From Pocillopora verrucosa (lineage: Eukaryota; Cnidaria; Anthozoa; Scleractinia; Pocilloporidae): a stretch of DNA of 64,000 nucleotides. The position numbers were made by a program, and so were the translations under genes. Shown here one piece after another: positions 6,137 through 62,866 of the stretch (within the stretch, counting starts at the first letter, position 1; every line of letters begins with the position of its first letter). Below the pieces are notes generated by a model. That model did no database searches. It was not told the origin of the DNA and saw only the letters and a list, made by a program, of their open reading frames with translations. The stretch is taken from positions 370,862 to 434,861 of the forward strand of contig NC_089325.1 in assembly GCF_036669915.1 (NCBI RefSeq), read 5' to 3'.

Positions 6137-7438
6137 TCAGTCAAAAAAGAGTCTTCTGTGCCCATCTCGTGACACTGTCTGGTGTAACTTCCTGAGTCTC
6201 TCAAAATCGCTCAAACTCCTACTCGAGTTGTGTATCTCAGACTCGCTCGGGCTCCTTCTCCAATTGGGTACGGGGGCCTGGCGAGGTGGCTGACTTGGCG
6301 ACCTCCAATTTTCAGAACGAATTTCTCGAATTGGTTGACTTGGAACACTCCAATGAAAAGAACCGATTTGTTCAGTTTGAACAGTATGTAGAAGCTCTCT
6401 ATTCTCCATAAAACCAAACTCTGAAAGGCGTTTCTCTTGGGTAGTCATATGAAATCCCTTGAAGATTGTCTCGACTGACTTCCTTAATTGAACAACCTCA
6501 ATGTTTGTACTTGTTAATAAGAGTTTTTCAACTTGTCGCAGAGATGATTCCATATATTTTACATAACTGGTATTACCATCAATTTCTTCTTCAAACCTTC
6601 TGACTGATTTTCTTATCTGTTCTTCTGCGTTTTTTAACATTTCTGTCTTTTTTAATTCTACAAGTTTTATCAAATTGTTTTCTAACTCTTCTATTTCCCA
6701 AGCTACAGTTGTTCCTTTTCGTACCAGTTTATGGCAATGTGCCTCAAGTTTCTTGACAGTGTTTCGCTTTGCTCTCAAATCGCATTTTTGCTGTTCAATC
6801 AGGGCTTCAATATCGATCCTCTGTCTTTCGGCCTCATCGTCTATGTGCTCAAAAGCGTGGCCATAGTGGTTTACAGTCACGCAAGTTTGACAAACAGCCG
6901 TGTGGCAGTTCTTGCAGTAGTATTTTAGTTCGTCGTTCTTGTGTCGTGGTTCGGGACAAAACACAGGCCGTTTTAACACATCCTCGTAGTCCTTGTCTCG
7001 AAACTCTTTCAGCGCCATGACACGGTGATCCCTATTCCTTCGCATGATGTTGTGTGCAGTTTCGCACCTGACGCAGTAAAACAAACAACACTGAAAACAA
7101 TAAGAACTTTCGGAACATTTCTGCTCGCAATTTCCACACGTTACACGGCTGTTCTTGCACTCTTTTATGGCTAATACATCAATCAAGCCGTTTAGATAAA
7201 AACTCGTCGGCAGATCTCTCAGATCGCCACTTCTGGGCACTTCGCTAACTTTTAGGCACTTCGGACATTTGATCGTGTCTCGGCCATATCTGCCATGGCT
7301 TGTTCTGTGCCATTGTTGTAAGCAGCTTAGGCAGAAACTGTGTAAACACAAAAGCTGTTTTGGATCGGTGAAGATGTTCGTGCAAACTGAGCAAGACACC
7401 TCCTCACGAAGGTTAGAAAGTAGAGTTTTGAATTCCAT
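6137..7438 (-). CDS. TRIM-family RING/B-box/coiled-coil protein, intronless
   Basis: A single-exon gene of 433 aa, a probable RING-type E3 ubiquitin ligase of the TRIM superfamily. The order is a C3HC4 RING at about 16-62 (Cys16, Cys19, Cys31, His33, Cys36, Cys39, closing with CPKC), a first B-box at about 100-145 (CGNC start), a second B-box at about 157-200 (FCPEP start, CKNC, CQTC, closing HYGH), then a charged coiled coil at about 205-315. The C-terminal 110 residues are Ser/Arg-rich and carry no recognisable NHL, filamin or B30.2 domain, so substrate choice is unknown. RING-BB-BB-CC proteins resembling TRIM2/3/45/56 are expanded and often intronless in corals. It is divergent from malate synthase: a duplicated shared upstream region separates them. 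AATAAA on the minus strand near 5660-5680 could be its poly(A) signal. Confidence 0.9.
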   Translation of the reverse strand: MEFKTLLSNLREEVSCSVCTNIFTDPKQLLCLHSFCLSCLQQWHRTSHGRYGRDTIKCPKCLKVSEVPRSGDLRDLPTSFYLNGLIDVLAIKECKNSRVTCGNCEQKCSESSYCFQCCLFYCVRCETAHNIMRRNRDHRVMALKEFRDKDYEDVLKRPVFCPEPRHKNDELKYYCKNCHTAVCQTCVTVNHYGHAFEHIDDEAERQRIDIEALIEQQKCDLRAKRNTVKKLEAHCHKLVRKGTTVAWEIEELENNLIKLVELKKTEMLKNAEEQIRKSVRRFEEEIDGNTSYVKYMESSLRQVEKLLLTSTNIEVVQLRKSVETIFKGFHMTTQEKRLSEFGFMENRELLHTVQTEQIGSFHWSVPSQPIREIRSENWRSPSQPPRQAPVPNWRRSPSESEIHNSSRSLSDFERLRKLHQTVSRDGHRRLFFD

Positions 7439-7505
7439 GTTGTTCTCTAAGGAGGGATGTTTGAGGCGATGGCTGTTTCAAAAATGCTCATTGAGATTTC
7501 TTCTG

Positions 7506-15100: not shown

Positions 15101-17764
15101 ATTACCGCAAGGATCTGTCAAGGCCAGTGTTCTGATAGAGAGTATCTTTTGTTCATTTGAACTTGATCAAATCCTGTTTGAGCTGCGGCATCACTCCGCT
15201 GGTCTGAACTGTGGCATGTGGGATTACTCCGCTTCTTTAATTAGCAACTTTGGTAAGTGAAAAAGTAGTAGCTAATGTCCTTTTTTACCTTTTCACCTCG
15301 ACATCAGGATGCATATTCTCCATACTGTTCTCTGTACATTTCCTAAGGTCCTGACAAGGAGAATTTGTTTAACAATCGAGAGTTTCTTTAGTTGGTGATC
15401 ATTTCCTTCATTCTTGTGACCCTCGTGTTTGATTTAGGGGTCATACTGTAAGGAGAAATTAGATACTAGTCACTGTTAGCGGTTACCAACCGCGACTCAA
15501 CCACTCAACTCTTTTAGTCCATTTTAAAGTATCTCATTTACCATGTTTACAATCAGTGTTAGAATTTCCCTCCTTAACCATCAAGTCGTTTTATGCAGTT
15601 GGACGGACAATTAAATTTTGGTTTAGCTATTTCTGCGCTATGTTATACAGGCACTTGTTTATGAAGCTGGGTAAAACATTGTCGTTTCAGGACACAGGGC
15701 CGATTTCATTTTGCCTGATCGTAAGAAGTACGTATCTATGGACAAGCAGTACCTTAAAAGTTACATGCAGCTGGTTATTAAGGTACATTACATTGCAATA
15801 AATGCCTTAAATTATTAAAGTAATAACGGCCTGTCCATTGATTGAAAAAACAATACCATGTGCTTAGTATGCGCTCGTGCGTATTTTCCTACTCACGTGT
15901 GTTATGCGTAGTACAGGATGCGCGGTGCAATAATGAGGAATCACTTTAAAAAGAATTGTGATTCCTTTTCCTGTTGTCCAGACATGTCACGCACGAGGGT
16001 GTCACGCAACAGGGGGGATGGCGCCAGTTGTGTTACCGAAAGATAATCCGCATCTTCGACAGCAAATCACTGATAAAGTCTGCAGGTAAGAATAGGAATT
16101 GAAAACAGATCCTTAGCTCTTACATTTGTTTACGTATTGGTTAATGTCTAAAGTTTTCTCCAGAGAAATTCGGTGTAACTTTGTCTTGATGTTTTTTTGT
16201 TTAGAGCAAAACTGAACGAAATCAAAGCAGGAGCGGATGGATTTTTAGTGTTTGATCCTGATCTTGTGCAGCCTTTGATTCAGGTCAGTAATTTAGTGTG
16301 CAATTAAGTCACGTCGACTTTTATTGTTATTTTTTGTTGAGAAGAAGTTTTGAATTTTTTTACGTAAAGAAGCCATTTAAGTGAGCTTAGCGGATGAGTA
16401 AGAACAAGGGGATATGCCAATTAACTTTGTTTCTTGACAACCTATGTTATTTTCAGATGTGGAAGACAGAGGTAAATTCCATGAACCAGCTTCATGTAAG
16501 CCGATCTGAACTGATGGTCTCTAGGAACGACCTTCTACGACTACCAAGGGTGAGAATAATGCTTGAACGCGATAATTTATGAAGGCGCTCGAAGTTTTCA
16601 TTTTAACTTATAGCTTTGTACATTTTTAGGGTGGATTCACCTTACAAGGATTACAGGATAACATTACTGTCGGAATCCTGTTCATAGATGCTTGGTTAAG
16701 AGGTATGTGTCTGGTCGTTACATATCAGAATATTTTAGGCAATTGTATGCAGGGCAAAGCAAACTTCAGCTGAAAGACGGCTGTAGAATATTAGTTTGGT
16801 AAAGTAGAAAAACAGAGTCTGTGATAAATCAAAGGGAAGCGTGGATTGATGAGGGTTGAGGAGATGGAAGCGGATTACAATTCGTTTTGTAGCAGCGTAA
16901 CCCGTTACACCCTAATATGGATATCCATATTCTCCATACTGTGCTCTACAAAATTTTTATGATGCGAACGTGGAGAATTTGTTCACCTATCAAGAGCTCT
17001 AGTTGGCGATCATTACCTTTATTCTCGCGACTTTAATATTTGATTCTGCAGGGATACTGTAAGGAGAAATTAGATGCCAATCACTCGTAGGGGCCAAAGG
17101 GTTTAAAAACAGATTTTGAGATAAGTTGTACGGCTTATTGCCTATTCAGTATAATGGCCCTCAATCCGGATTAGAGTGCTTTAATGCTAATTATCATTGT
17201 TATTAAATATCAATTAATCAATGTTATCAGTTATCAATCTCAATTATCAATGTCCATTGCTCTGTCTTACTGCACGCACGCTCGTTCGCATTAACTTTTG
17301 TATGTTGCTCATTTATTCGTACCCAGGCCAGGGTGTGTTTGTGCTCAATGGAGCTGTAGAAGACTCAGCCACAGCCGAAATTTCAAGGTCACAGGTAAGG
17401 TGGACACTGTTTTAGACACTACATACACAAGGGGATGATACACTTAAACTTGTCTGAAAAATGATCATGACAAGTTTCTTAGCATATACCTCCTCTGTGT
17501 TACTTTCAGATTTGGCAGGCAATTCGCCATCGGTGCAAACTGGAAGGAGATGGCCTCATAGTGACTAAAGCCCTCGTTTGTGGTGAAATTAAACGTATCG
17601 CAGACGAGCTTGTCAGCCAGAAAGCTTACGACTCTGTTGATACAGAAAGACTTACGATGTCTGCTAAGATATTGGAGGAGCTCGTATTGAAGCGAGACTT
17701 CCCTCAGTTTATAACCACATACCTCTATGAACATCAAGCGTTTAGGAACAGCGTGCAATTATAA
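9180..17764 (+). CDS. Malate synthase (glyoxylate cycle), 15 exons
   Basis: Condenses glyoxylate and acetyl-CoA to malate (EC 2.3.3.9). Exons: 9180-9281, 10752-10883, 11293-11508, 12168-12246, 12469-12545, 13263-13373, 14256-14315, 15096-15252, 15691-15782, 15982-16085, 16205-16283, 16457-16549, 16630-16702, 17327-17394, 17510-17764. They join in frame to 565 aa, close to malate synthase A length. Motifs: FRPRAW with catalytic Arg190, PLFDFGLHMFHN, GPFFYLPK, Mg ligands Glu274 and Asp302 (28 apart, within HHSAGLNCGMWDY), GGMAP, and general base Asp471 in VEDSATAE. Intron 1 uses a GC donor (CAG|GCAAGT); all others are GT-AG. The protein ends SVQL, not a canonical PTS1, so peroxisomal targeting is unclear. 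The ATG at 9180 is preferred because the exon joins in phase, though it is the least certain exon. Animal malate synthases are patchily distributed and known from cnidarians and nematodes. Isocitrate lyase is not in the window. Several introns carry MITE copies. Confidence 0.92.
9791..9971. repeat. Long imperfect inverted repeat (foldback) in malate synthase intron 1
   Basis: Arms at about 9791-9861 and 9892-9971 are reverse complements with scattered mismatches. They share TTGATAA outer ends, a TAAAGAG block, CTAAAGCTGA and TTAGCCCTTC, around a ~30-bp spacer. The length and arrangement fit a foldback or MITE-like element. Confidence 0.75.
11539..11745 (+). mobile_element. MITE-like element, family A
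   Basis: About 205 bp, starting TAATCCTTTCACTCCCAG and ending GGAAGTTAAAAGGTTAA, so the ends are inverted repeats. The interior has AGTAATTCT, GAGAATTTGGTAT and GTAAGGAGAAATT. It starts ~30 bp after exon 3 of malate synthase. Confidence 0.7.
12911..13110 (+). mobile_element. MITE-like element, family B
   Basis: Shares with other B copies CTAACATCAGTATGCA, TTCTCTATACATTTCCTA, a GATCATTTCCT block, TGATACTGT and a 3' end TTAGGGGTTAAAAGG. In malate synthase intron 5. Confidence 0.65.
14935..15000 (+). repeat. Possible tRNA-derived SINE remnant
   Basis: An AAGCTCAGTTGATGGTGCAT stretch resembles a tRNA A box, and GTGTTTGAATCC about 40 bp on resembles a B box. No intact cloverleaf forms. In malate synthase intron 7. 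Confidence 0.35.
15286..15486 (+). mobile_element. MITE-like element, family B
   Basis: Matches family B with ACATCAGGATGCATATTCTC, GTTGGTGATCATTTCCTT and ACTGTAAGGAGAAATTAGAT. It starts about 35 bp past the donor of malate synthase exon 8. Confidence 0.7.
16898..17106 (+). mobile_element. MITE-like element, family B
   Basis: Ends TAACCC...CACCCTAAT and TAGGGGCCAAAGGGTTTA are inverted. The interior carries CATATTCTCCATACTGT, TTGGCGATCATTACC and CTGTAAGGAGAAATTAGATG. In malate synthase intron 13. Confidence 0.7.
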
Positions 17765-20191: not shown

Positions 20192-32205
<12,014 letters not shown>

Positions 32206-41898: not shown

Positions 41899-42852
41899 AT
41901 GGAGAACTCGAGTCTAACTTTAGCTCTAAATTCATCAGCGTCAAAATCAGGATGCGATGAATGGTTGGACATGATCTTTTTAGTGTTAGACGGATTATTA
42001 TCAGGCGTAATTATAATCGGCAATGGAGTAACTTGTCTTATTCTCCTGAGAAACAGCCATTTCAGAAGCTGTTTTATGAACACTTTCCTCGTAAGTTTGG
42101 CTGTTGCGGATATTTTAATGGCTGTGTTTGTGATGCCGGGTGAGGTGATCTTTTGTACAAGTTGCAGCCAACCAGTCAGCGAATATTGCTGGCTAATCGG
42201 TTCCGTGAGATATTTTGTTTTTTCGGCAACGAAACTCAATCTGCTCGCCATTACCTACGACAGATACACAGCGGTGATGAGTCCTCTAAGGTACAACGCA
42301 AAAATCAACTTGAAGAAAGTCATCTCAATTCTTTCATTAGTATGGACGTTTCCCATGATTTTAACACTGAGCCGTTTAGTTTGGTGGATCAAGCTACCTC
42401 GGCATCAAGCTTTATACGCGGACCGTATCTTTAACACGTGTCTTATGTTCTCGCTGGTTACTCTACCTGTTGCTGTACTATTAGTTGCGAACCTCAGGAT
42501 TGTATTGGAAATCAGAAAACAGCATCGTCGAGTGAGCACAATGGACAAAGCAAGCGTAACAGAAACTTGCTCAAGTAGCAACAATGCAAGCAATAAGCAC
42601 AGACGGAAAACATCGCGTCAGGCGGGAAGAAAGGGAACAACGGCTTGTGTTCTTGTGGTGTTTATTTTTGTGATGTGTTGGTTTCCCAGGGGATTGTATA
42701 ATATTTTCAGGCTGTTTGGCAAAGAAGGGCCGTTGTTGAGGGAACTAAGCCTGTTTTTCCTGTTTGTTCAGTCAGCCATTAATCCGTTCGTATACTCGTT
42801 TTACAGAACTGATTTTAGACGTGCGTTGGTAAGACTTCTGCGATGTCGTTAG
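41899..42852 (+). CDS. Rhodopsin-like (class A) GPCR, intronless, canonical motifs
   Basis: A 317-aa single-exon seven-helix receptor. Seen: N-glycosylation sequons NSS in a short N-terminus (residues 3 and 11), GN in TM1 (Asn42), SLAVAD in TM2 (Asp71), Cys97 in the first loop, DRY at 121-123, Trp in TM4, CWFP in TM6 (260-263), NPFVY in TM7 (295-299), and a short tail with a terminal Cys for palmitoylation. The third intracellular loop is rich in Ser and basic residues (RRKTSR), a likely kinase target. All activation motifs are intact, unlike the receptor at 2060. The aminergic-type arrangement suggests a small ligand but the ligand is unknown. AATAAA near 43128 could end its transcript; a perfect hairpin lies in the likely 3' UTR. 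Confidence 0.9.
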   Translation: MENSSLTLALNSSASKSGCDEWLDMIFLVLDGLLSGVIIIGNGVTCLILLRNSHFRSCFMNTFLVSLAVADILMAVFVMPGEVIFCTSCSQPVSEYCWLIGSVRYFVFSATKLNLLAITYDRYTAVMSPLRYNAKINLKKVISILSLVWTFPMILTLSRLVWWIKLPRHQALYADRIFNTCLMFSLVTLPVAVLLVANLRIVLEIRKQHRRVSTMDKASVTETCSSSNNASNKHRRKTSRQAGRKGTTACVLVVFIFVMCWFPRGLYNIFRLFGKEGPLLRELSLFFLFVQSAINPFVYSFYRTDFRRALVRLLRCR

Positions 42853-47017: not shown

Positions 47018-48053
47018 CTAGATGGTCAATAACTTCAGAGCAAACACAGCCTCTACCATGTTATAAAACGCTTTCAAATCAGAGTAATCACAAAATTCCA
47101 AGTTGTACACGCGGCGACTTGTCGCAATCGAAGCAATGTGCCCGAGGTTTCCACTTTCATAACCTCCAACTCTTCTTTTTCGCCAGGTATACTTCAGGGC
47201 ACTGGAGACGAGCCTTCCTGGCTGCACCATGCTAAGCTCTGAAACATTGATTTTCATTTTAAGAGATTTTTGGTGCGCTCATGAATTTAAGAATAGGAAA
47301 AAGAATATATCCCATGATTCTTTATGTCTGCCTTACAAGAGATGCTTGCAATTGAATTGTGAAAGTAAATGTTTGTTTCACAAAACAGACGCATATTCCA
47401 TACGTGAATACCCTCAAAGCAGAGGTATCACAACCATTCCCTGCAGTTTTTTCAAGTTTCTCTTAGAGAATAAAGGTACTCTTTGTTTGGGTGAAGGGCG
47501 ACAGAATGAGGGTCAAGTGGGTCGGTGACTGTTAAGTGTCTTGTTAGAAGCAAAAATAAAAACCTGACCTGATACTTCACTTGAGAGCATTTGGAAAACA
47601 GAAAATAGAGGATCAAGCGGAGGGACTTTAACTTCCACATGAACTTATTTCTATGGTAATTATTCCATTTTCAAATCAGCTATCCCAGGATGACTTAAAT
47701 TGATCATATTCATTGAGGCAATTGAATTCTTCCCGGGAGACTCATACGTCCAGATCCTAAACTTAATTAACTTTGGAGGGATTAGACCTGTATTAGGGAT
47801 TGGAGTTCATAGCTTGATCCCCTTTTGACTAAGAAGCATGTTTCTTATCTTGGGGAACTGGTCCCAAGAAAAAAATGTTCACAAAAGACGAAAAGATTGA
47901 TAAAGTTGCGCAGGGTAAAAACGTATAGTTACCTTTCAAATCGATGATCTTTTTAGTTTTCTCGTTTTGAATCGCTTCTCCTTCGCCAGATTTTGATCTC
48001 AACTCAAGTTTGTGGGAATCTTCATGAAAAAATAGGTCTCCGTAATGCGGCAT
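47018..48053 (-). CDS. Small putative two-exon gene, unknown product
   Basis: Exon 1 runs from ATG 48053 to about 47934 and ends GATTTGAAAG|GTAACT; exon 2 runs from about 47238 to 47018 after a TTTCAG acceptor. They join in phase (DLK-E-LSMVQPG) to about 114 aa ending KLLTI. The ATG follows a TTGTATTAG acceptor-like site, so an untranslated or coding upstream exon is likely. The protein is basic in the middle (KYTWRKRRVGG) with no signal peptide or known domain. It begins 318 bp beyond the stop codon of the polyketide synthase on the same strand, and could be a separate gene or part of a longer transcript. Confidence 0.35.
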
Positions 48054-48370
48054 TTTGTTTCCTAATACAACAGAAAAGTGTTAATTAAGCATTAGATTCA
48101 GACAGGATACCTCTATCTATCACCTGAAAAGCTACATTGAGGCAGATCTCCAACATTTTCAGGCCTTCAAAACCTAGACCATAGAGGTCATAATGGCAAT
48201 GAAAAGAGGGGAAATTTGCATGGAGTCAGTGATAACTCAGGGTAAACAATGGGAAAAGGCGAGTGACAAAGTCTCTAAGTTTTCAGAATGATTTTCTAGA
48301 AGAGTAATGGAACCAACGAAAATCCAGCATGCCTTTAGACAATGATTGTATTTGAGAGAAGAAAAAGAAA

Positions 48371-51300
48371 CTATGCTTCTTCAATAAAAGTACAGGCGTT
48401 TTTCAAATCACCTTTCTTTGAGTGGAGGAACACGCCTACACCACCGGAAAGTTTCCCCACGGCGCGTCTTTGGTTGAACGTTCTTGGAGGTGTAGGGAAT
48501 TCAGGGAACAACATGCGGTAGGTGAAGGCCAGGGCTGTTGCTAGGATACCCCCTGTTACTTGGGCTTGTGGTAACTCACTTAAGGAATAATGATCACCAG
48601 GACAAACGAGTACTGTGGTACCTCCATCTACCAACTGGCTCCAGACTTCCTCGATGCCGTGTGACGTGGGATTACGGGGCAAAAATCTGCTGTTCTGGCA
48701 TTTGAGGAAAGTGAGGGGACCTCGATAGCGAACCTATTGAATATAAGGAATGCAAAAATGCAATTAAAGTTATTCTCCAATCATAATCATGTTTCTAATA
48801 AATTTATGATGTCCAATGGCTTGATACTCTTCTCGTTATGCAAATTAAATTTGGACAACCTACTTCCTTACTGTAAGGATATTCGTTATTCCTTACCTCT
48901 GCAGGCTGCCATTCTTGGTGCGTCCTATTGGCAATGGTTTGATTCCTCAGAAGAGCGTCTCTTAGAGTCCTTAAATCGTAGGTAGTAAGACCTTTAGTAA
49001 GACTTCTTTTCTGTAACTCATCAACGATCCAGTCTTGACTGTGTGTCTCTCTCATTTGTCGATATTCGTCAACGGACATCTTTAAGGAGTCTACTGCAAG
49101 CTTTTCCAAATAGCTTTCGAATTGGAGCTGAAGAGATAAAAAAAAATCTGTTAATTTTCTAATGGAAGTAAAATACTCGTCATGGATCAAATGTAAAGCT
49201 ACAAAACAGCTGTAGACCAATTGGAACGGTTAGTTATCAAGTCAATCAGGACAGATCTCTAAAAGCAAAGGAGATATTCTTTCTCCTTTACCTCCCCTTT
49301 CGGGTTCGTAAATCAATGATCCAATGATTTCCACTAGGTTAAACCCATGCATTAAAACTATGATTCATAAAGAAGTGTCCTCACGAGCCAAAGTTATTGG
49401 AAAAATCACCCCAAAAATCACCCAATGAGGTATACGTAATAAAATATGTGTACAACACATAAGGGAAAAAAATCTCCAAAATGACTTATTTGTATTTCAA
49501 GATTTTCATTCAAAATGCGAAATTTTTACTTATTCCAATGACAATAATTCGATGATATATATTGAATATGAGTAATTTTGACTCGTCGAACAAACCTGAA
49601 CATGTTGCGATGGCAACCATCCGTCTTTCTTCATGGAAAATAACCTGGTGGTTATGGTCCGTGAACGCGGTGACCAAGGAAAGGTGTCAATCATAGCAAC
49701 GAACTCCACCCTGTGATCCTGTTCGGTCAGTAGGGAAGCCATTTCGTACGCCAAAAGTCCTCCATAGGAATATCCCCCGAGAAAATAGGGTCCATGGCGC
49801 TGTTCTTTGACGATTAGCTGAACGTAGTGAGCGGCAAGCTCACGTACTCCACCCCAGTCCTCACTAATGACCGTAGGGTCAGTAAAGCCCAGAGCATAAA
49901 AGGATACTAAGTCCTAATAATGCATGATAAATGAAAAAATGCGAGTCACAAGATGAGATTTTCGAAAATTATGAAGTAAACATTCATTTTTTGAGGTTAG
50001 GCGGAAGTGCAACCAGCCTAACACCCCTTAGTGATATATTCGGGGGGACCAAAGGAGGAACCTCCACGGGGCAAAAATTGTAAAACCTCTTAAGATTTGG
50101 GACGGAAAGCGACCTCGAGTGCGTATCGTTACTCCGCCATCTCCGCCATGAGATGTAGGTTACCATGAAACTGTAACAAAGACAGCAGAATATTCCTTAG
50201 CCATAGATCCAAATTAATGTAAGACGATTGATTATAAATAATATCCAAATGATTATCGCATCACTGACCGCTAAAAAAGGGCTAAAAAATGTCAATACTT
50301 CTCAGGTATGTACCTGCCCTTGAAATCCGGTAGAAATGGGAACCAAATTCAACGCGTAGCGATGTGAAGGGTGCACACAGAAGAACTTTATTGCTGATCC
50401 CTCAGGAGTGTAAAGGGGTAAAACTTGGACCTCATTCTTGGAGGGTACGACTGAAGCATTTATATCCTCCGTTGACTGAGTTTGGTCGGGTTCATTTCCT
50501 TGGCTCTCGCTATTCTGTGGGCTGACTGATTTTCCACGAAGCCTGTCATAGATGTCATTGGCCATTTTTAGTGTGGTAGTGTCGGGCTGCATAAAGTAGA
50601 ACACCTGAAACAAAATGTTTTAATTGTTTCAAGTTTAACATACACGGGTAGATTTATCTGCATAAAAGATCGAATTGAACTCACTGCAGTAAGCTGCTTG
50701 AATAGACCATAACTATTTTCCATACATGATCATTAAAGTAGCCTTTGAAAGGAAGAAACTCATGTGCAAGTTTGTCAAAGAACTTTTCAAAATAAGAAGC
50801 TTTCAGGAAAATTGGGAGCGTTTTCATTGACTGTGAATGTAAGGATAAGAAATTACGTATGCGGACTTACGCGACTCTCTAAGATCTATCATTGGAGGAA
50901 ATTAGAATCCAGTTTTTTTTAAATTCATCTTATGAAATACCCACCTCAAAAGATACCTGCAAGTTCGATTCAAGCAGCATTTTCAAAGTCAAAGCTGCAG
51001 TTGAGTCAATACCGTAGCTATACAAGCTTTTGTTTAGATCCGTCTCTGAAGAAGATGAACTGCCTGTTAATTCCGCAACTGACATGCGAACATACTCAAG
51101 AATAAGTTCCCTTTTCTTTTCGGGATCCTTCTCTAAGCGATTTTTTTGCAGTAAAGACTCTGCTGTGTTAGTTTGGCTATCAGAATCACTGGTTTCTGTA
51201 GTAATCATTGCGAGTCGGGGAGTCTTCTGTAGTCCGGTATTACTTTTGATGAATCGAGGCCAGTCCACACCAAATAACGAGATCTGCGGGCGACTCGGCT

Positions 51301-54300
51301 CCTCGATTAAGACCTTGGCCATAAGTTTGACTCCTGAAAAATTAATCAAAAATTGGTCACGAGAACTACAAGATGAACAAAATTGCTCTGGCGCTACTGT
51401 AAATAGTATAATAGAGGAAAAGGCAAGATTTCGCGGAAGAAAAATTCCGGTGAATCGCTCGGTAAATAAAGTTATCTACTGATGGTAAGTCCTTTCCTGT
51501 CGGTATCAAATTACTGTCGCCTGGAGTAAACCCCTTGCCCACCAAAGCTTGCAAAGAAGCTGATTTGTTCTTATCAGCTCACCCTCCAGCATGAAGATCA
51601 GTGAGCTTAAATATCCCCTCACACACATCACACGTAGTCGTGCTCATTTTCATCTGTTTTGACTATTCTACGCTCATTTTGTTCTGTTTCTAGCATATTA
51701 CAATTTGAGCATGTTACTGAAATAACATTTTACCATCTTTGGCATTTATGAAGCCCAGTCCGCCTACTGCCATCAATTTTGTAAGAGCACTCTGCCGTTC
51801 CATCACGCCAGCTCCACTTATTGGTCCCCAGTTTATCGAAAGTCCGGGTAGACTGAGCACTCGTCTTCGATACTGGGCAAGAGAATCTTGGAAGGCATTG
51901 CAGGCGGAGTATGATGATTGACCCATGTTTCCTACGATGGATGCCATGGATGAGAACATAACGAAGAAATCAAGATCCATCTTCAAGCTCATTTGGTGTA
52001 GCAAGTAGGAACCTAAAGAAAACGTATCACACTGATGATCTTGATTTAATTCATAGCTTGGCTATGACATGAGCAGCGTTACCCTGATGATATTTCTACA
52101 CAGCAACAATTCAAACAAATGAATTTAAGTAACTTTACAAACTCGAAAGTGATAATGTTGTTTAAGTGTCTTTAATTTGCATTTCTACAGACACGCTAAT
52201 TTCGGATTCTCGTCTAGATTGATTCACTTATGTTAAAAGGGTTTGATTGTGAGGGTTAGGTGCACTTGCCTTTTAATTACGTTTGTTTCATATATTTACT
52301 GAAGGTGAAATAGAAAACAAACACAGAAAAGAAGGTAAAGTAGTATTACTTGAGGTGTCAGACCTGTTGTAAGGTGTTAATCAATATATTCTTGGGTCGA
52401 AAGAAATGGTTTAAGGATAATAAAGATAATGATAGCAGGCATGACATGCACCTTTAATCTTAGGATCCATGACATCTGTGAAACTTCTAAATGACCAATC
52501 TTTGATAAATTCATCTCTGAGAACCATGGCAGTATGTACTATTCCAGCCACACTTGGAAGAGAGTCTAGCTGCTCTTTTAATGACTGCATTTGCTCTTGG
52601 CTGGATATGTCGATCTATAGCAACAAAAAAGAAAACTGTGAAATCCATGAGATAAAAGGTGCTTTACTTTCTGGACATCACACAACGTGAACTTATATAG
52701 CATTTCCTATAAGGGAAATGTAATCGTAAAAATGTTGCACCAAGTGAAAATTTACTATGGCAAACATGCCACAAATTACCTGGAAAATATGAAACTTTGC
52801 GCCTGTCTTGGTCTCAATACCTCTTACTTCTTGATACTTGGCATCTGAGGGCTTGGAACGACCAATCAGTCCAATAGACTTTGCTCCATTCTCGGCCATC
52901 CAACGCGCCACTTCAAATCCGTATCCTCTGATCCCCCCTGCCACCAAATACGTTTTGTTTTCTTTCAGACCACACTCGTCTAGACCGCGTGGAAGAACGG
53001 GGATCTTTTGACGATCACTGCATTCTTTAGATGGAGCAAATGAGTGAATCAGAAAAGAAATACTTTGAAATACTCTCATGGAAGTTTTCGATGGTGAGTT
53101 GTTTACAGTGAAATCGTTTGTAGCTTCAATGGCCGTCGGTATGTCCATCGATACCAATTTGATTTCTTGTAGCTTTTCCAGGAGTGGTCCACCTTTTAGC
53201 AGCTCTAGACTCTCTAAACTGAGCTGTTGATAAGTTTGTGGTGTTAGGAGGATGTCTGAAATGCTTTCTCTCACATACATAACATTTTTCTTCGCAGGGA
53301 AGACGACGTCTCCATCAAATTCGGCTCCCAAGATAACAACTTTTCCTCCGCGTTTGAGATTTCGACTGCTTTTTTGGAGAGCGTTCGGAGGGGGTGGGTA
53401 GAAAAACAAAACTGCATCAAAGGCGTGTCTGGAATCATCTTCAAATTTGGCGAGGCTCTGATTTGTAACATTCTCAGCTCCCAGCTCTAGGAGGGTAGAT
53501 TTTGTTACGGATTGACAAGTGTCAGACACAGTGCAAAATACTTTGTGACCCATTGCTTTCGCAAGGGCAACTGCTGCAGGTCCAGGGCCACGGTGAGCTT
53601 GATGTATAAGTAATCTCATATTTTCTTTCTTTGTTGCTGTGCGTTTTAGTGCATGCAAAGCTATGGCTAGGCAGGCAGGGATGTATGTTGCTTGTTCCTG
53701 TGTCAAAATGGCTGGCTTCACAAACGTGTTGGTGACTTGTATGGGAAGGGAACGAGAAACGCGCCCAGAGGCTGTAACGCCGCACACAACGTCTCCTATT
53801 TGCATCTGATTATTTGCGGTCTCTCCTGATAGGTGAGTGACCTCTCCAACGGTGAAAACACAGGCATTTGGTTTGGATACATCAATAATTGATTCCGAAG
53901 GTGTCCAGCAATAAAGCAGTTCTATTGTGACCTCGGAGGGCGATGGTTTTGAAAAGCTCTTCTGGCGAAGGCAGACTTTCCTTGTACCGGGGATGGACGA
54001 TAAGTACAAAGAACCCCAGTCGCTTTCATTACTGTGTGGTGTGGGTTGCTCTATGGATATGTTTGATCTCACAACATGATTTATGAACCGCTTTCCATCT
54101 CGAAAGGCGACCTCCTCTTCAATGCTATCGCCAAGTATTTCTGAAAGCAACAAATCCACCTCAGTAATGTCATTCTTGTTGCCAAGATCAATGGTTGTGA
54201 TACCCAGATCAAATTCTTCGAGTTTCGCTGTTCGTCGAAGTCCCCAGATAGTAGACGCCCAAGGAATGGAATTGACTTGAGACTCAGTTGTGGTATTTAG

Positions 54301-57300
54301 GAACTGTGTACTTTCAGAGACGAGTAGCAGTCGACAATCAAGCAATCCCTTGCTTACGAGCTGTTGGATCAAGAAGACTGAGCTGTTGAAGGCGAGGTTT
54401 TGTGCTTTTTCAATAACATCAAATTTGTTTGGTAGGAGATTTGTCTCTACTGGCCACATGTTGACGACTTTGAGGAAGGATAAATTGCCTGAGGGTACAC
54501 CAGTTAACGCTGAACTGATTACGTCTTCCGTTTTGGTGTCAAAAGATAGAGCATTGGGTGGATCAACTGTGATTACGTTGACTTTTGCGGCGCGAAGTTT
54601 TCCGATTAAGGTGTCTGATAAAGGAGAGCTGTCCCTTAGAAGAAGACAGGTCAAGTTTGGCGAAATTTCTCTTTGTGTCTGTAACTTATCTTCAATCCAC
54701 TGCACTTCATAGACAAGGTCATCAGAGGGAAATCGTCGTGGTGTGCTATTTAATTCTGCAACACGGAATTCCCTCATGGTCAGTAGAATTTTTCCAGATG
54801 GACTGGTAAGCGTGACGTCGAATTTTCCGAACTCTTTGACATCCCCAATAACGTGACAATAAAGTTGATTGGTATTTGGAGGGTCATTCAAAGTGATACC
54901 TTCAAATCCCACCGGTACAACAGACTTCTCGTCAATAGCTGAAGATCCAAGAGGAATGAAGCAGGATTGAAGACAAGCGTCTAAAATGGAAGGGTGAACC
55001 ACATAATTTTCAATTTCTGATTGAACCATGAGTGATTCACGGATATCGATCAAGCAAAGTCCCTCGTTATCACGGTACCAGGTCTGTTTAATGATGGAGT
55101 AAGCACCACCATACTGAAAGCCGTACTTTTGTGTTATTTCTCTGAATCGTTCAATCGGCATCTCTGTCATATTTCTGATCAGGTCATTAACAGCTGGTCC
55201 AACTTGATTGCAGGCTGTTAGAATCAAAATGATGGAGAGATGTATTTTTTTAACTTCTATGTAAGAGTTATTGTCTCTAAGAATCGTTACGGTCACAGCA
55301 TCTTTTCCAAGAAAAATGCGTCATTAACTTGAACATTTTTTATCAAATTTTAAGCGATAAATTTTTTAAATTTTTAAACAAATGGATGGATAAATTGATA
55401 TATAACGAATCGAGAATCTTGCAAGCGTTAAATGTTATGGTACCTTCTTCCTCGAAGTTTCTTCTTGTGTGCAAGAGATCTACGGAGATGTGTCCACCAC
55501 TTAACATAATTTCAGACTGGTCTTCCTGTACGCTCGTGATCTGGAACTGAGCGTTATCAATTATTTCGGTCCTTAAAAGGCGAAGACGTAAGGATCTAAC
55601 CTAAAGTGCAAAGGACGAAGAAGTCAGATAAAGTCGGCTTAGCTCCTTAGCTTGCCTCTAATTAATTTGCACACATAATTATTACCTGTGTTTCGGGAAG
55701 AGTGAGAAGACTTGAAAGCTTCACATCACTTAGTTCCAGGCCAGAGGTATGAACGAATTTGTCCTTTACCATTGCAAAGGCCATCTCCAAGTAAGCAGCT
55801 CCAGGCATCACAGCACCCCCCTCGCTTAGGGCGTGATCCTTCAGGGATGGAAAGTTGAAAAGATCAATCTCAGTTTCCCAGCAGTGTAGGCCTGAATATA
55901 AGTCGGTCATTTTGACTTGTGCTAGATAAGGATGTGTTGGCTTCTTAATGGTTTCTTTAGAGTCAATTGGGTGTACTATCGCTTGTGGTGGGTGTTCCCT
56001 GTACCAAAAGCTGCTTTCCACCCATGGAGATTTTGGTAGCCGGATGAACCTCGCTGATTGGCTCCCCTGCACAGAAGTCCAGTCAACAGGAAATCCCATT
56101 GTATACAATTTGCACACCGTGTTCTGAATAAAGTATCTGTGCTGGTCCTCGATGGGCACCCTCTTACGAGGAAGAGTTGTAATGACAACAGGCCTTTCTT
56201 CTTCCGTCAGATCTTCCTGAAGAGCTATCTGTTTCACGTAATGGGCAAGAATTGGCTGCGTACTGATCTCAATTATCTGTTTGTAACCATCCCGTAGTAG
56301 GTGTTTCATCGCTGAATAGAACCGAACAGGACAGCGTATATTTTGCCACCAGTAATTGCTGTTTAATTGCTGACCCGAGACAACTTCACCTTTAACCGTA
56401 GAGTACATCGGAATTTTTGATAACTGAGGGTTAAATTTCACATTTTTCATAGCTTCCTGAAATGGTTTTTTGATCGGCTCCATGTGAGAGCTGTGAAATG
56501 CACGATTCGTTCCAAGAACGCGCCAGAAAACATCTTTTGCATTCAGCGATAGATGTTGCCCAAGTGCCTCGATGGATTGCGAATCACCAGCAACTGTGAC
56601 ACTTTTTGCATCATTGACCGCTGCTATGTCGAGGGTGGCGCTTAACCTTAGATCAAAAAGTAACTCCCTGGCCTTTAATTCTGAGATGCCCAGGGCAGCC
56701 ATACCTCCATTGTTCGGGCATCTATCTTGAAGATTGGCGCGAGTTAATACCAGCTGAACTGCTTCCTTGACAGTAATGATACCAGCAACACAGGCAGCTG
56801 CAAACTCTCCTAAACTGTGACCAATAACAGCAGAAGGATGGACTTTCCAGGACTTAAGGAGCTGTGCAGTTGCGTACTGAACAGCAAAAGTGGCTGGCTG
56901 GGCAATGTAGCTTTCTGTTATTCGTGAAACGTCTTCTGGTGCCATCAATTCGTCCTCGAGTGACCATGTTTCTCCCAAGTCTTTAAGAAAGCTGCTGACT
57001 GTCAAAATAGCTTCTCTGAAAACAGTTTCAAATTCCATTAACTGCCTTCCCATGGCATACCATTGTGACCCTTGACCCCCAAACATGAAAACGACTTTTC
57101 TAACACTCGAAGTCACCTCGGCATAAGAAGCCAACTTTTCCCAACCAACGGAGTTAACAGCGAAAGCTTCCAATGACTTGGATGCTTCGAGAGCGGTTCC
57201 AAAGGCAAGAGCTAGGCGATGCGGATATTGGCTTCGACGTTCGTTTAAGGAATAGCACAAGTCTTGCGCAAAGTGTTCATCCGTTTCATCAGCCTTGTTT

Positions 57301-60300
57301 TTAATCCACGCGGAGTAAAGCTCTGACATCTTCTTAAGACCCTCTAGAGAACGAGCTGTAATGGTGAGGACATTGTTCTTGCGTATATAGTTTTCACCTT
57401 CAAAACTTGGCGTCGGTGTAGCTTCACGAAGAATGGCATGCACATTTGACCCACCATAGCCAAATGAGTTTACGGCTGCTATTCGCGGCTTGCCATTTTC
57501 TGTGTTCCAAGCCTCTCGAATTTGTTGCAATATAAGTCCTTTTTCTTCTAGCTTTAGTTTGGGATTCAACACCTTGACGTTGATAGTTGGTACAAACGTC
57601 TTGTTTCTTATCATCAGAGCGGTCTTAATAAGCCCAGCAAGTCCAGAAGTAGATTCCGTGTGATTGAGATTAGATTTTACAGAGCCAATCCTCAATTTTC
57701 GTGAAGAAGTTGCGCCCTGGTTAGAGTAAGTATCTGCTATAGAGTTGACTTCCACCACATCACCAATTGCAGTACCAGTCCCATGTGCCTCGAAGTAATC
57801 CACGTCTTCTGCGGTCACTCCTGACTGCTCAAGTACTCTTCTTGATAACTCAGCTTGCATCTTGGCACTTGGGGCAGTGATCGGCACGGCATTTTGACCA
57901 TCGTTGTTCATTCCACATGCAACGATCTCGCAATAAACATCGTCTTTGTCACACAGAGCATCTTTTGTCAACTTTAACACAACCGCTGCGAAGCCCTCCC
58001 CGCGTCCATAACCGTCCCCAGAAGCATCAAAACTTTTGCAACGGCCGTCTGGCGCGAGAAGTCCGGCCATACTAGTTACCATCTGCATGGAATGATCAAG
58101 GACGACATTGGGTGCACAAACGATGGCTATATCGCAGTCATCGTGATGGAGATTGTCACAGGCTAGTTTAAGGGCAGTTAGCGATGAAGAACAGGCTGTA
58201 TCCACAGCAATACTTGGTCCTGTTAGATTTAGGCAAAATGACACTCTGTTGGCAAGAATAGACGCCGTTATCCCCGTTGAAGAATACTGATTAATGTTGC
58301 TGTAATTAGACCGGTCTGTTGTGAGGGCGCCGTACTCAAGGTTCATCACACCAACAAAAACACCTGTTCTACACTTTTGTAAATCTTCAAGCCGCATTCC
58401 TGCATCTTCGATTGCCTCGTAGACTACTTGAAGGAGTATTCTTTGCTGAGGGTCCATCGCACGTGCCTCTTGATTGGAGATACCGAAAAACCTGTTGTCA
58501 AAAGTTTGTATTTCTTCCAAGTAGGAACCATTGATGGCACAAAGGCGTCCATTAACGAAGCGCTTAGGATTGTAGAGTTCAAAAAACGCTTTATGCTCCT
58601 GTTTTCGATTATCGGGAAACGGACGGATAGAACTCTTTCCTTCCTCTAGCAAAACCCAAAAAAGGTCCTTACAGTTGGCTCCGGGGAATCTACAACTGAT
58701 GCCAATGATAGAGATCTGGGGACGTTTAGCCTTGAGCTTTGTTATGTCACCATTCCGTGCCTCAAGTAACATTGAGTCATATGCTTCCAGGTAATGTTCC
58801 ACTAACTCCTCGCTATCCTTAGAATTAAAATAGTGAACTAACTCCTCAAACAATGCAAGGAACGTGGGAACGACAATCAGAGCATGGATTGACCCTAGAG
58901 CGAAGACCAGAGGAAGTAGTAGAAAGAAAATATCTGACAGACTGGGAAATATAAATCCTAAGGAGATAGATGCTAATATGGATGAAATTGTGCCTGCTAG
59001 CACGGATACTCCAACAGAGCGTAGACCGTCGATCATGCGATCTTGTATACCCTTCTTAGCTGAGAGTACGTACGAATAACCCACTTCAATACTGGAATTC
59101 AAAGAAAGGATAATCGTCAAGTAAAGAGAAATGAAAGACACAGGATCGAGATAAATTCCAAACGTGTTCATAATTGCAGCTGCTTCCAGTACTAGGACGT
59201 CGAATGCTAAAGTCAGGATTGTACTAACACCTAGATGACACGTCGCAAATAGAGAAACTGTAAACACCACCACTGTGCCAACTGCGAGGACTATGGAGAT
59301 TGTTTCTTCTTCTAACTTGACGAGGTCGTCAACAGCGAAAAACTTTTCGGAGACTGGAATAGCTTTCAGGAAAGAATATTCTTGTAAATCGCCTCTCAGT
59401 TTCCTCAGGGATTTTCTATCGTCTTGAAATCGGTTTTTAAGAGTCATTCTGAGATGAATTCGAGACGCCGATATTTTGACAAGGGATATAGAATCTTTTA
59501 GAAGCAAGTCTTGTCTAAACGGCAAACTTTGGGAATTGTTCAGGAAAATCTCAAAGCATCGGTAGAATTCTGAGTACGAACAATTCATGTTTTGATGTTT
59601 AACCCATTGTCGGAAGTCTTCCGTCCAACAAAGCGACCTTCCTTTACTGTAAGAGGCCTCTTGCAGTTTTTCACACAGTGATACTACTTGATTTTGCACA
59701 CTTTTTAGTGGGTAGTCAATGTCCTCGGAGAAAACGATGCTTACATCAGTTTCGTTGCTAAAGAAAATTTGTCGTGCCTTATCGAATTGCTTGAAGTTTT
59801 CATTCTGGTAGTACGAGTCTATGGTACGTGCTCTCTCTCCAGTTTGAAATGCAGACAAAACACACAAAATAATGAGTAGGGCAAAGATACCAAGGGAGAT
59901 AATTTTGCCGCCAGTTGATGTTATTTTACGAGCTAACGTTTTCAGAATCCGTTGCAGTTTTGTTTTATGGTAAAGTGAGTGTCTTTGTTCAAAGCTGCCA
60001 GCTTCAACATTCGACAACCTTCTTTCACATGCTGCCGCACAAGGAGTATTAATGGTCTTAAGCTTCCTTTCAAAATACAGCAACACAATGACAGTGATTG
60101 TCAAAGTAGAAGCAGAAACAGCTAGATGAGCGGCAAGTGTTGCAAAGAAAAAATGGGAAATTCCCCTGAACGAGGATTTCACCGCTACTCCACAAAGAAT
60201 TGACCCACAAAGTGCAGTTGCGGTGGCGAGGACCCCTGTTCTAGCCAGGCAATTGCCAACGCGATGTTCAAGTGATGGCACCATTTGATGCCTTTCCCAT

Positions 60301-62866
60301 TCAACGAGGAAAAGTACCACGTCTGTAATTACTTTCCCCAACAAAAAGAATGGTATGAACAGGGAAGTTGAGGTAAAGGCAAAGTTCGTCATCGAGACAA
60401 AACCTGCAGAACACGTTAATGGTAAAACAAAGCATGAGAATATCAGGAGAACCGTCCTTAAACAAACGGCATTGGCAGAAGAAAAGTGTACTACAATGAA
60501 TGCAAGGACAGCCATCGCAAAAACTGTAACACAAAGAGGCCATAGCTCTGGTTTGAAGACGTCTTGCAAGGCCTTGGTTGTTGCTCTCCCAGTCTTGTAG
60601 GAAAGTTCTGCACATTTCAAGCGATGACTGACTGATGTGAGGAGATTGCTAAACGTGACTTCAAAATCCTCTATTTTTTGGTACTCTTCTGGACTGGTTG
60701 TCTTTCTTATGAAGTAAATAGCCTGAAGAGCGTCGGCATGAGCAGTTAATCGATCTCTGTTCCGCTGTAGGTGGAAATTGGCCAGCATTTGACGATAGGA
60801 ATGTTTGAATGTTTGGCCAGAGGAAAGAACATTAGTAGGCTTTACCGACTCGCGAGCCAGAATAGAGGAGAGATTTTTCAGATTTTGAAAATTAGTTCCA
60901 GCTAACTCAAGAGGACTGCTTATCATGCAATTTTTTTCCTTACTTTCTTCGGCGACATTTGGTAATTGCTGCTTTAAACATATATCATCGTAACCACTGA
61001 TGTTCTCAATAGCTCTGTGGACCATAACGACGTCTCTCAAACATTCTTCACTCAGAATACTTTCGCCGTCCTTGGGTATCATGATGACTTGTTCTTGGCG
61101 CGCCTCAAGAATTGGAAAAAATTGCGCAGAATTATGCGAGTCTTTTCTAGATTGGCTGTCGGTGACAGTAAAAAGGTCAATGTTGGGCTGCTCGAAATTC
61201 AGGCGAATGAATCCCAGGCAGCAACCAACCATAATAACGAGCGAAATCAGAAGAGCCACCAATGGTTTGCGTGCAAGGAAGTGCCCCATCCTCTCGAAGG
61301 CTTCTTGGTACGCTGCAAGGACGACGAAAACTTTGATTCTCCAAGTAGTGTTGATAGTTCCACAGTCAGGAAGGCATTGTTTGCGCTTCTTGTGAACCCG
61401 ATAAGACCTAGAGTTAAGAAACGGATGTCGGGAAGAAATAGCAATATTGAATTTGAAATTGTAGGTTTTATGAGACAACAGTTATGACTTTTTTGTCCTA
61501 ATACAGAAATGTCATCTTTGGAAAATTCATCAGACTACAAACTAATTTTTGAGGGTTGCAAAATATTTCTCATCTACGCTTAAGTAATCAACGGTTTAGG
61601 AGAGTCTCAAAAAAAGCTGCTAGGAAGATGTTTTTTGCCGGGTGTACCGGCGAACAACTCAGATTAGTTATCGTATTTTCCTTGCTTTTCATAAAACCTT
61701 AGGCAAGTCTTTTCATAATCATCAATACAATGAAGATCAAAATTTTTACTATCCAACTTCTTAGATTTTTTGTGGAATGTCAAACTCTTGTCTCCCACTC
61801 AGAACCCAGAATTCTTGTTTGCGATTCTTATAGAAACTAGATTAATTGAAATTGAAGAGACGTAAACTTAATAGTGGCTTATCTAGTTTGAACCTAAGTC
61901 AAATGCTAATGGTTGAAAAACATCAATATTTTAGAGAATGTACATTCTATAGATAAAAACTTTTCCGATGCACAAAATGCATAGCCTGATGTAAACACGG
62001 AAACCATTTCACATTTCTTTATAAAATAACTAATGAAAGAGGAACGGAAACCGTGTTTACATAGGCTCATGTAAAATGGTTTTATGGCCAATCAGAGCGC
62101 GCATTTATTTGAATTATTTTATAATATTGAATGTTAGGGGAATCTAGCTAACGAGCAACCCACGCTCGGCGAAAGGCATCAAGACTGTTGAACTATCTTT
62201 TTCATTTCCAAAGCAAGGTCAGTAGACAAACTAAGCATGTCCACTTAAGGAAGACAGTCACAATTCGGAAACTCATCGCCACAACTCAAAACTAAACAAT
62301 TTCGGGATTTGAATTCATACGGTAACTGTACAATATAAATATAATGACTAACTAAATTAACTAAATACTTCATAACAACTTAATGAAAGTGAAATTAAAC
62401 GTAAAAATTTGCTTTGATGTCACGGAGGACAGAGGGCGAATATGACTCTCTTTCTGCAGGTTCCGTGTTTTTTATTTTATTAACTCTGTGCTTTCGATTC
62501 TAGTCAAAACAGTCCAGATCAGGCTATCTTGCATGATTGGATGAATGGTGTTCTAAATTCAAGTAAACGTTCCCTTGCAACAATACTCTTCTCTAAACGG
62601 CTTTGAAAATTGCCAGTAAGTTCATAGAGAAACAGAGCAATGCACCATTAGTGTGACAATTTCCTTATGAGTTTTGCAAATTTTGTGGACTGTGTTCTGA
62701 ATGATTTATGCAGCACGCTTGCTGCGCAAAATCAGAAACACGAATCTCTCTCCGTCGTCCCTCTAAATTTAAAGACAATCCTTTTTTGAAAAAGGAAGAT
62801 TCAAATCTGTACTTACCTATATCTGGAAGCGTTTTCGCTTCTCTCTGGCTCCGAAGTAGCATTCAT
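48371..62866 (-). CDS. Patched/RND-type membrane module fused to FAS-like type I polyketide synthase
   Basis: About 3465 aa. Exons: 62866-62817, 61407-55686, 55600-55444, 55214-52780, 52614-52452, 52012-51734, 51333-50945, 50604-50314, 49913-49596, 49127-48897, 48733-48371; all junctions keep frame. Residues 65-868 hold twelve predicted helices in RND order: TM1, large loop (85-305), TM2-6 (sterol-sensing-type, 306-461), TM7, large loop (538-719), TM8-12. After a ~45-residue linker comes KS (913-1340; Cys1089 in DTACSSS, His1225 in EAHGTGT, His1266), AT (Ser1548 in GHSLGE, Arg1573, His1655 in AFHS), DH (His1875, Asp2055), a structural/pseudo-KR region, a degenerate ER-like domain, KR (GGIRGYG 2736-2742; Ser2864, Tyr2877), ACP (Ser3046 in GIDS) and TE (Ser3211 in GYSYGG, His3393). 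No methyltransferase motif. The fusion point lies inside one 5.7-kb exon, so it is not a gene-prediction merge. Exon 1 is inferred from a TATAG|GTAAGT donor matching phase; otherwise translation would start at a Met before TM1. Animal FAS-like PKSs are known from molluscs and cnidarians; the RND fusion is the novelty. Confidence 0.88.
61984..62066. repeat. Short inverted repeat in synthase intron 1
   Basis: GCCTGATGTAAACACGG (61984-62000) and CCGTGTTTACATAGGC (62051-62066) are near-perfect reverse complements 50 bp apart. Confidence 0.75.

Follow-up and report, generated by a model that had tools for sequence, protein, structure and literature searches.

A 64,000-nucleotide stretch of the genome of the stony coral Pocillopora verrucosa (NC_089325.1, positions 370,862 to 434,861; hereafter the window, whose own coordinates are used throughout) raises the question of whether a single animal gene can join a membrane module of the RND superfamily to a complete polyketide synthase (PKS), and what such a protein would do. 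Comparative sequence analysis supports a single gene on the minus strand that fuses an RND module containing a sterol-sensing-domain-like (SSD-like) block to a complete PKS and that is conserved in corals and sea anemones. Because of this conservation the product is probably membrane-tethered, as a first-pass annotation of the same sequence had proposed.

An open-frame scan of the window gave a stop-to-stop open reading frame (ORF) of 1,939 codons at 55662-61481 on the minus strand. Within it, exon 2 occupies exactly the stop-free frame from the RND module into the dehydratase (DH), 61407-55686, that the first-pass annotation had singled out. The 13-exon splice model, whose ends were set with guidance from the relatives P0001 (Stylophora) and P0002 (Oculina), has GT-AG at every border, closing phases and no internal stops, and its product has 3,568 residues. 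Ten exons had been counted earlier; exon 7 now extends to 50945, and exons 12 and 13 are added. A 3' end formerly placed at 48371 was rejected, since it lies in an intron: the frame there is read-through past the end of exon 11 at 48412, and the conserved exons 12 and 13 come after it. AATAAA is found downstream of the gene at 46882-46877 on the minus strand. Oculina P0002 likewise has a short variable N-terminus, ahead of an RSY motif, and Stylophora P0001 begins later. A tblastn search of the window with the 3,568-residue protein and three relatives gave 43 matches, none of them outside this gene. The gene and its exons are as follows.

47018..62866, minus strand: whole coding gene, 13 exons, 3,568 residues, ATG at 62866, stop codon at 47018
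62866-62817, 61407-55686, 55600-55444, 55214-52780, minus strand: exons 1-4 (splice model)
52614-52452, 52012-51734, 51333-50945, 50604-50314, minus strand: exons 5-8 (splice model)
49913-49596, 49127-48897, 48733-48412, minus strand: exons 9-11 (splice model)
48061-47933, 47238-47018, minus strand: exons 12-13 (splice model)
62817..62866, minus strand: exon 1, short variable N-terminus with ATG (splice model)
55686..61407, minus strand: exon 2, a single exon reaching from the RND module through linker, KS and AT into DH (AG/GT borders, matching phases)
52780..55214, minus strand: exon 4, remainder of DH, structural region, ER and start of KR

The N-terminal part of the protein is the RND module, followed by a short linker to the ketosynthase (KS). 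Its parts, including the transmembrane (TM) helices, are located as follows.

58818..61361, minus strand: RND module, residues 33-880, 12 TM helices, NPC1/Patched-like (hydropathy, profile, AlphaFold2 model)
60552..61190, minus strand: loop 1, presumed lumenal or extracellular, residues 90-302 (AlphaFold2 model, alignment)
60069..60551, minus strand: TM2-TM6, SSD-like block (Pfam, alignment)
60338-60321, minus strand: TM4 motif GKxxTD
59307..59831, minus strand: loop 2, presumed lumenal or extracellular, residues 543-717 (AlphaFold2 model)
58731..58817, minus strand: RND-KS linker, residues 881-909, without stop and without intron

Twelve helices with two large loops in Patched/RND order had been read from the letters alone, and the AlphaFold2 model of the module (pLDDT 83, pTM 0.83) agrees: it has 12 long helices, counted by eye, with folded domains after helices 1 and 7, and it matches RND structures along its length. 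A profile of the protein's own family matches NPC1 with an E-value of 1.5e-17. Both the fold of the NPC1/Patched RND superfamily (12 TM helices, large domains after TM1 and TM7) and a sequence match to it are present; with TIGR00917, the model for NPC1 proper, the score is 76 bits, far under the curated cut-off of 1016.5. In the earlier half of the long ORF, the window copy scores just below the Pfam thresholds for Sterol-sensing (20.9 bits, cut-off 22.3) and Patched (19.9 bits, cut-off 23). Two of the four full-length relatives scanned pass the SSD cut-off, Stylophora P0001 (35.0 bits) and Actinia P0033 (26.3 bits); Oculina P0002 (18.7 bits) and Nematostella P0036 (no match listed) miss it. 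Residue counts were taken from an alignment of 42 sequences chosen by the authors from 129 (the window protein and 128 relatives). The TM4 aspartate is present in 40 of the 42 rows and the adjoining lysine in 41, three loop-1 cysteines are invariant, and seven loop cysteines are kept in 38 to 42 rows.

A complete PKS after the RND module had been claimed as well, and all of its domains were found, with mostly intact catalytic motifs.

57438..58727, minus strand: KS, C-H-H present (Pfam, motif alignment)
56226..57101, minus strand: acyltransferase (AT), GHSLG and RAFH motifs (Pfam, motif alignment)
54604..55958, minus strand: DH, exons 2-4, His and Asp present (Pfam, motif alignment)
53029..54042, minus strand: enoylreductase (ER), complete MDR fold in model, cofactor motif RGPGPAA
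51819..52962, minus strand: ketoreductase (KR), exons 4-6, K, S, Y and N present (Pfam, motif alignment)
50575..51112, minus strand: acyl carrier protein (ACP), exons 7-8, Ser of GIDS present (Pfam, motif alignment)
48575..50412, minus strand: thioesterase (TE), exons 8-11, Ser of GYSYG, Asp and His present (Pfam, motif alignment)

On the long ORF, Pfam places KS (6e-77), AT (9.5e-56), the KS C-terminal domain and DH, all in the later half. As in PKSs of the mycocerosic acid synthase (MAS) type, KS, AT, DH, ER, KR and ACP are all present with their catalytic residues; the DH spacing and the ER cofactor motif are unusual. Motif rules exist for the KS, AT, DH, ER and KR domains, among them KSNxGHTE, HxxxGxxxxP and the KR tetrad. 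The KS has KSNLNHTE (57677-57654), with Asn in place of the Gly in nine of nine anthozoan sequences aligned, and the DH motif HALSEGGAVMP (55841-55800) has an H-to-P spacing one residue longer than in HxxxGxxxxP, two residues longer in both octocorals. The RAFH motif of the AT we take to be malonyl-type by the AFH rule.

The PKS half had been called FAS-like, after fatty acid synthase (FAS), and this holds for its domain order; its sequence appears MAS-like. Among the 60 of 227 matches of KS-AT to solved structures that were listed, the best PKS chain scored 588.6 bits, MAS 456.2 and the best FAS 312.5, so that by search score animal FAS is not the closest of these. The exon-4 model, compared with Foldseek, matches a MAS-like region at E 4.7e-37 and EcPKS2, one of the animal FAS-like PKSs (AFPKs), at 4.6e-20. 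Judged from these search scores and the exon-4 comparison rather than from a tree, the protein does not belong with the AFPKs, which are nearer to FAS than to PKS.

The coupling of the two halves is covalent and lies in one open frame. Measured in 86 relatives, the TM12-to-KS stretch spans 36-61 residues, forms 32 clusters at 60% identity and is always open, partly by selection because these relatives were picked as ORFs. Of 100 ORFs of 1650-2000 residues, 86 end at most 60 residues after the L.LPETQ-type motif that precedes the exon-2 splice site. An assembly join near the RND/KS boundary, considered by the first-pass annotation, is not borne out, as the junction recurs in many assemblies. 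Chance or misassembly is ruled out by the full-length database models that share the layout and by P0034, which is 98.9% identical to the window over 1,869 residues without gaps and whose 90% cluster has 682 member sequences (members not inspected singly). Expression as one mRNA is suggested by this conservation and by the database gene models.

The search for fused domains in cnidarian proteins that had been recommended found the fusion in the stony corals Stylophora, Oculina and Desmophyllum and in the sea anemones Actinia tenebrosa and Nematostella vectensis; Oculina and Actinia belong to the Hexacorallia. Stylophora pistillata LOC111325863 (P0001) shares 82.5% identity over 3,533 aligned residues, a level that points to a pocilloporid source, and three Oculina patagonica proteins share 64-67%; identities are 74% and 52-54%, respectively, in the RND region and 90% and 74-77% in KS. 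Nematostella P0036 has 3,442 residues, with KS at 794 and an RND score of 128 bits. The fusion models are named by NCBI as uncharacterised or 'mycocerosic acid synthase-like'. Searching with the RND region (query residues 1-900) at fusion length gave 19 matches, each of which carries RND as well as KS. With the PKS half as the only query there were 924 matches; 109 of the 120 listed also carry an RND module above 100 bits, and both halves occur in 113 of the 128 proteins collected. The length limits of both searches favour fused ORFs, because a lone exon-2 KS-AT-DH ORF (about 1,000 residues) falls under the limit of the PKS-half search. The other 11 of the 120 show no RND: besides seven modular PKSs and a pair of octocoral proteins, they comprise P0032, a Desmophyllum model in which KS is missing too, and P0028, from the same coral and probably the latter part of a split gene. 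Tandem copies are suggested by contigs of equal size: six matches have 1,995,220 in common, five Desmophyllum models 2,830,418 (a single split gene probably accounts for two of these) and four from Oculina 38,537,115.

No clear unfused RND relative was found: of 7999 candidates scored, eight matched, apparently all of the RND-PKS family. Three of these lack KS (P0023, P0026 and P0027), and all three end inside the RND half. P0023, an RND-only protein of 792 residues with seven member sequences, ends in TM12 at residue 864 of the window protein and is possibly a broken copy. Transcripts beginning or ending at the RND/KS boundary had been named as a possible objection; two proteins, P0023 and the octocoral P0118, which starts at KS, come close to it, and both may be incomplete. 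In contigs of 84,980 prokaryotic species, 120 stretches matched two peptide patterns of low sensitivity, and none encoded a relative (tblastn, 1e-3), so that bacterial MmpL-PKS fusions may have been missed.

Exons 12 and 13 encode 116 residues after the TE region, which form part of a conserved tail.

47018..48421, minus strand: C-terminal tail, possibly PH-like, end of exon 11 with exons 12 and 13 (splice model, phmmer)

The tail is matched by phmmer in Stylophora, Oculina, Actinia and Desmophyllum P0028 and weakly in Nematostella (19.5 bits), with no match in two octocoral proteins; Dendronephthya P0118 has a similar tail by eye in the alignment only (24% identity). Three matches in the PDB were obtained up to E 10, SET binding factor 1 (0.045) and two RanBP3 chains (0.41 and 0.44), all of which have PH-type folds. 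Weak profile matches were seen to PF00169 (PH, E 0.044) and PF10450 (0.029), each in one of seven members, and none in the tail of the window protein. It is possible that the tail is PH-like and perhaps a second membrane contact.

A described protein joining RND to PKS or FAS was not found in searches of the openly licensed PMC literature. Compared with NPC1, NPC1L1 and Patched, the coral RND starts at the equivalent of NPC1 residue 334 (model residue 32), and it has no equivalent of the preceding part of NPC1, in which the N-terminal cholesterol-binding domain lies; it differs further in altered TM4 and TM10 residues and in the attached PKS. MAS-like iterative type I PKSs share the domain order, MAS is among the best solved KS-AT matches and a MAS-like region is the best for exon 4, whereas the C-terminal TE, the conserved tail and the N-terminal RND set the coral protein apart. 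KS-AT identity to the seven modular PKSs, of which four come from named bacteria and a fifth from a bacterial metagenome-assembled genome, is 32-37%.

The AFPKs EcPKS1 and EcPKS2 are likewise animal megasynthases with a FAS-like domain order, but they lack RND, and for the coral exon-4 model EcPKS is a poorer match than MAS-like regions; AFPKs are reported from molluscs and arthropods alone (PMC10764717). Medaka OlPKS and sea urchin SpPKS2 are also animal type I PKSs that stand closer to the microbial PKSs than to FAS, and a TE is present in sea urchin PKS2 (PMC4604110). Unlike the coral fusion, the animal PKS architectures tabulated in that paper show no RND module. The earlier claim that the layout is undescribed in animals stands for the openly licensed papers searched, but NCBI models exist, and in Table 2 of the same 2015 paper three PKSs of Acropora digitifera appear as 'other-KS-AT-DH-KR-(ACP*)-TE', the N-terminal 'other' being unexplained; one turtle entry has 'other' too (PMC4604110). 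The mycobacterial MmpL7-PpsE pair similarly couples an RND lipid transporter to a PKS: MmpL7 binds PpsE, and coupling of transport to synthesis has been proposed (PMC1238737). These are however two separate bacterial proteins, from the MmpL rather than the NPC1/Patched branch, and the coral protein is a single chain. PKS1 and PTCHD3 lie in one 56-kb selected region of the crown-of-thorns seastar (NW_019091419:1682033-1737827; PMC12330192) and may be neighbours in this echinoderm, and pks15 and a patched3-like gene are both among differentially expressed genes of a pearl mussel (PMC12652611). Both sources list PKS and Patched as separate genes; they hint at a wider PKS-Patched link.

By its sequence the locus is one frame and one gene, with the whole layout conserved, an RND fold and mostly intact catalytic motifs. 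RND relatives of the coral module bind and move hydrophobic lipids via lumenal domains. We propose the following for the NPC1/Patched-type RND and the iterative, reducing type I PKS of MAS-like kind (KS-AT-DH-ER-KR-ACP-TE) to which some 30 linker residues join it. Lying in the cytosol up against the membrane, the PKS would extend malonyl units, and the TE would free a lipid-like chain; this product, or else a lipid substrate, would be picked up at the inner leaflet by the RND half, which would move it to the lumen or the outside, or present it. We infer topology, iteration, malonyl use, membrane hand-over and transport direction. In favour of this mechanism, what has been conserved in covalent linkage is an entire RND and not just an anchor; MmpL7 binds PpsE (PMC1238737); and the medaka PKS has a secreted product and an apical location (PMC4604110). 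Taken as a whole, membrane-coupled synthesis with subsequent RND-mediated lipid hand-over is the best explanation, to which we lean slightly.

Several points weigh against a conserved fusion with a transporting RND half. NPC1 has D-N in TM4 and E in TM10; in the profile alignment, whose TM4 part scores only 17.8 bits, the window protein has T-D and N, and across the 42 rows TM4 has T/S/A-D and TM10 has N in 37. These differences make a classic ion-driven pump uncertain, and such transport may have been lost. Sequons give no clean topology marker, with five in the two loops, three in the N-terminal stretch and one in TM10. The RND module was not detected in two octocoral relatives, both apparently incomplete at the N-terminus: Dendronephthya P0118 begins exactly at KS, and in Paramuricea P0126 a hydrophobic stretch within the 75 residues preceding KS aligns to TM12, so that residues 1-75 may represent the last part of an RND module that the annotation missed. 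Trees of the two halves, for the 107 of 129 sequences with a KS start found after residue 700, are correlated, with a Mantel r of 0.88 that 0 of 2000 permutations reached and of 0.89 once the anemones are left out. Of the 63 strongly supported RND splits, however, 20 clash with strong KS splits, for which gene conversion between paralogues could account.

The main rival gives the RND half the part of a sensor that also anchors the synthase, rather than that of a transporter: its SSD would bind sterol or product and control stability, location or activity of the synthase. The SSD of HMG-CoA reductase controls its attached enzyme and so provides a precedent for an SSD-enzyme fusion, and the SSD matches in two of four relatives and the altered TM4 and TM10 residues fit as well. 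The module is, however, a whole RND with 12 TM helices and both loop domains, far beyond the SSD of HMG-CoA reductase, and its three loop-1 cysteines are invariant; we consider this explanation rather unlikely. The same altered residues, together with faster evolution of the RND half than of KS-AT (mean tree distance 1.04 vs 0.58), would suit a degenerate passive anchor merely placing the synthase at one membrane, but a single helix would be enough for that, and the TM4 aspartate, the adjoining lysine and the seven loop cysteines are retained, which makes it improbable. Least probable by far is an artefact of the gene model or the assembly, or a locus that consists of two neighbouring genes or yields separate transcripts. 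The neighbouring Desmophyllum annotations OS493_013735 (P0021, RND and KS start) and OS493_013734 (P0028, KS onward) look like one split gene but would fit two genes as well; against this rival stand the single stop-free exon in the window and in many other assemblies, the open TM12-to-KS stretches of all 32 clusters (though picked as ORFs) and the three RND-only matches, which all break off inside the RND module (P0023 in TM12).

Elsewhere in the window further coding regions were noted, of which the GPCR, RING/B-box and NatA-subunit genes fit an animal genome.

2033-3040, plus strand, and 41899-42852, plus strand: two single-ORF rhodopsin-type GPCR genes (PF00001, E 9.3e-24 and 1.5e-34)
6137-7477, minus strand: TRIM-like ORF of 446 residues with RING and B-box zinc fingers
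22967-23311, minus strand, and 24163-24522, minus strand: NatA auxiliary subunit ORFs (PF12569, E 5.7e-9 and 5.6e-37), a housekeeping gene
17483-17764, plus strand: weak match to a malate synthase C-terminus (22.0 bits, cut-off 23.1)

Neither half of the coral protein is new, but no described protein joining an RND transporter to a PKS or FAS came up in the literature searched. Cnidarian PKSs have been tied to biomineralisation, partly since Nematostella and Hydra seemed to lack them, and Table 2 of the 2015 paper lists zero pks genes for Nematostella (PMC4604110). The full-length RND-PKS P0036 contradicts that statement and takes away half of this contrast, so that the ancestral role was probably not skeleton building. 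Tentatively, and with somewhat less conviction than for the hand-over itself, we suggest an animal single-chain machine for synthesis and export, an NPC1/Patched-type transporter fed by its own reducing PKS, which would have been present in the coral-anemone ancestor, been multiplied in stony corals and delivered a secreted lipid signal, a defence compound or a mineral-nucleating lipid. In the coral fusion, the coupling that has been proposed for MmpL7 and PpsE (PMC1238737) takes covalent form. Corals and sea anemones, including the laboratory model Nematostella, gain a defined candidate enzyme for lipids, which bears on two questions, namely what the products of animal PKSs are and whether they play a part in calcification.

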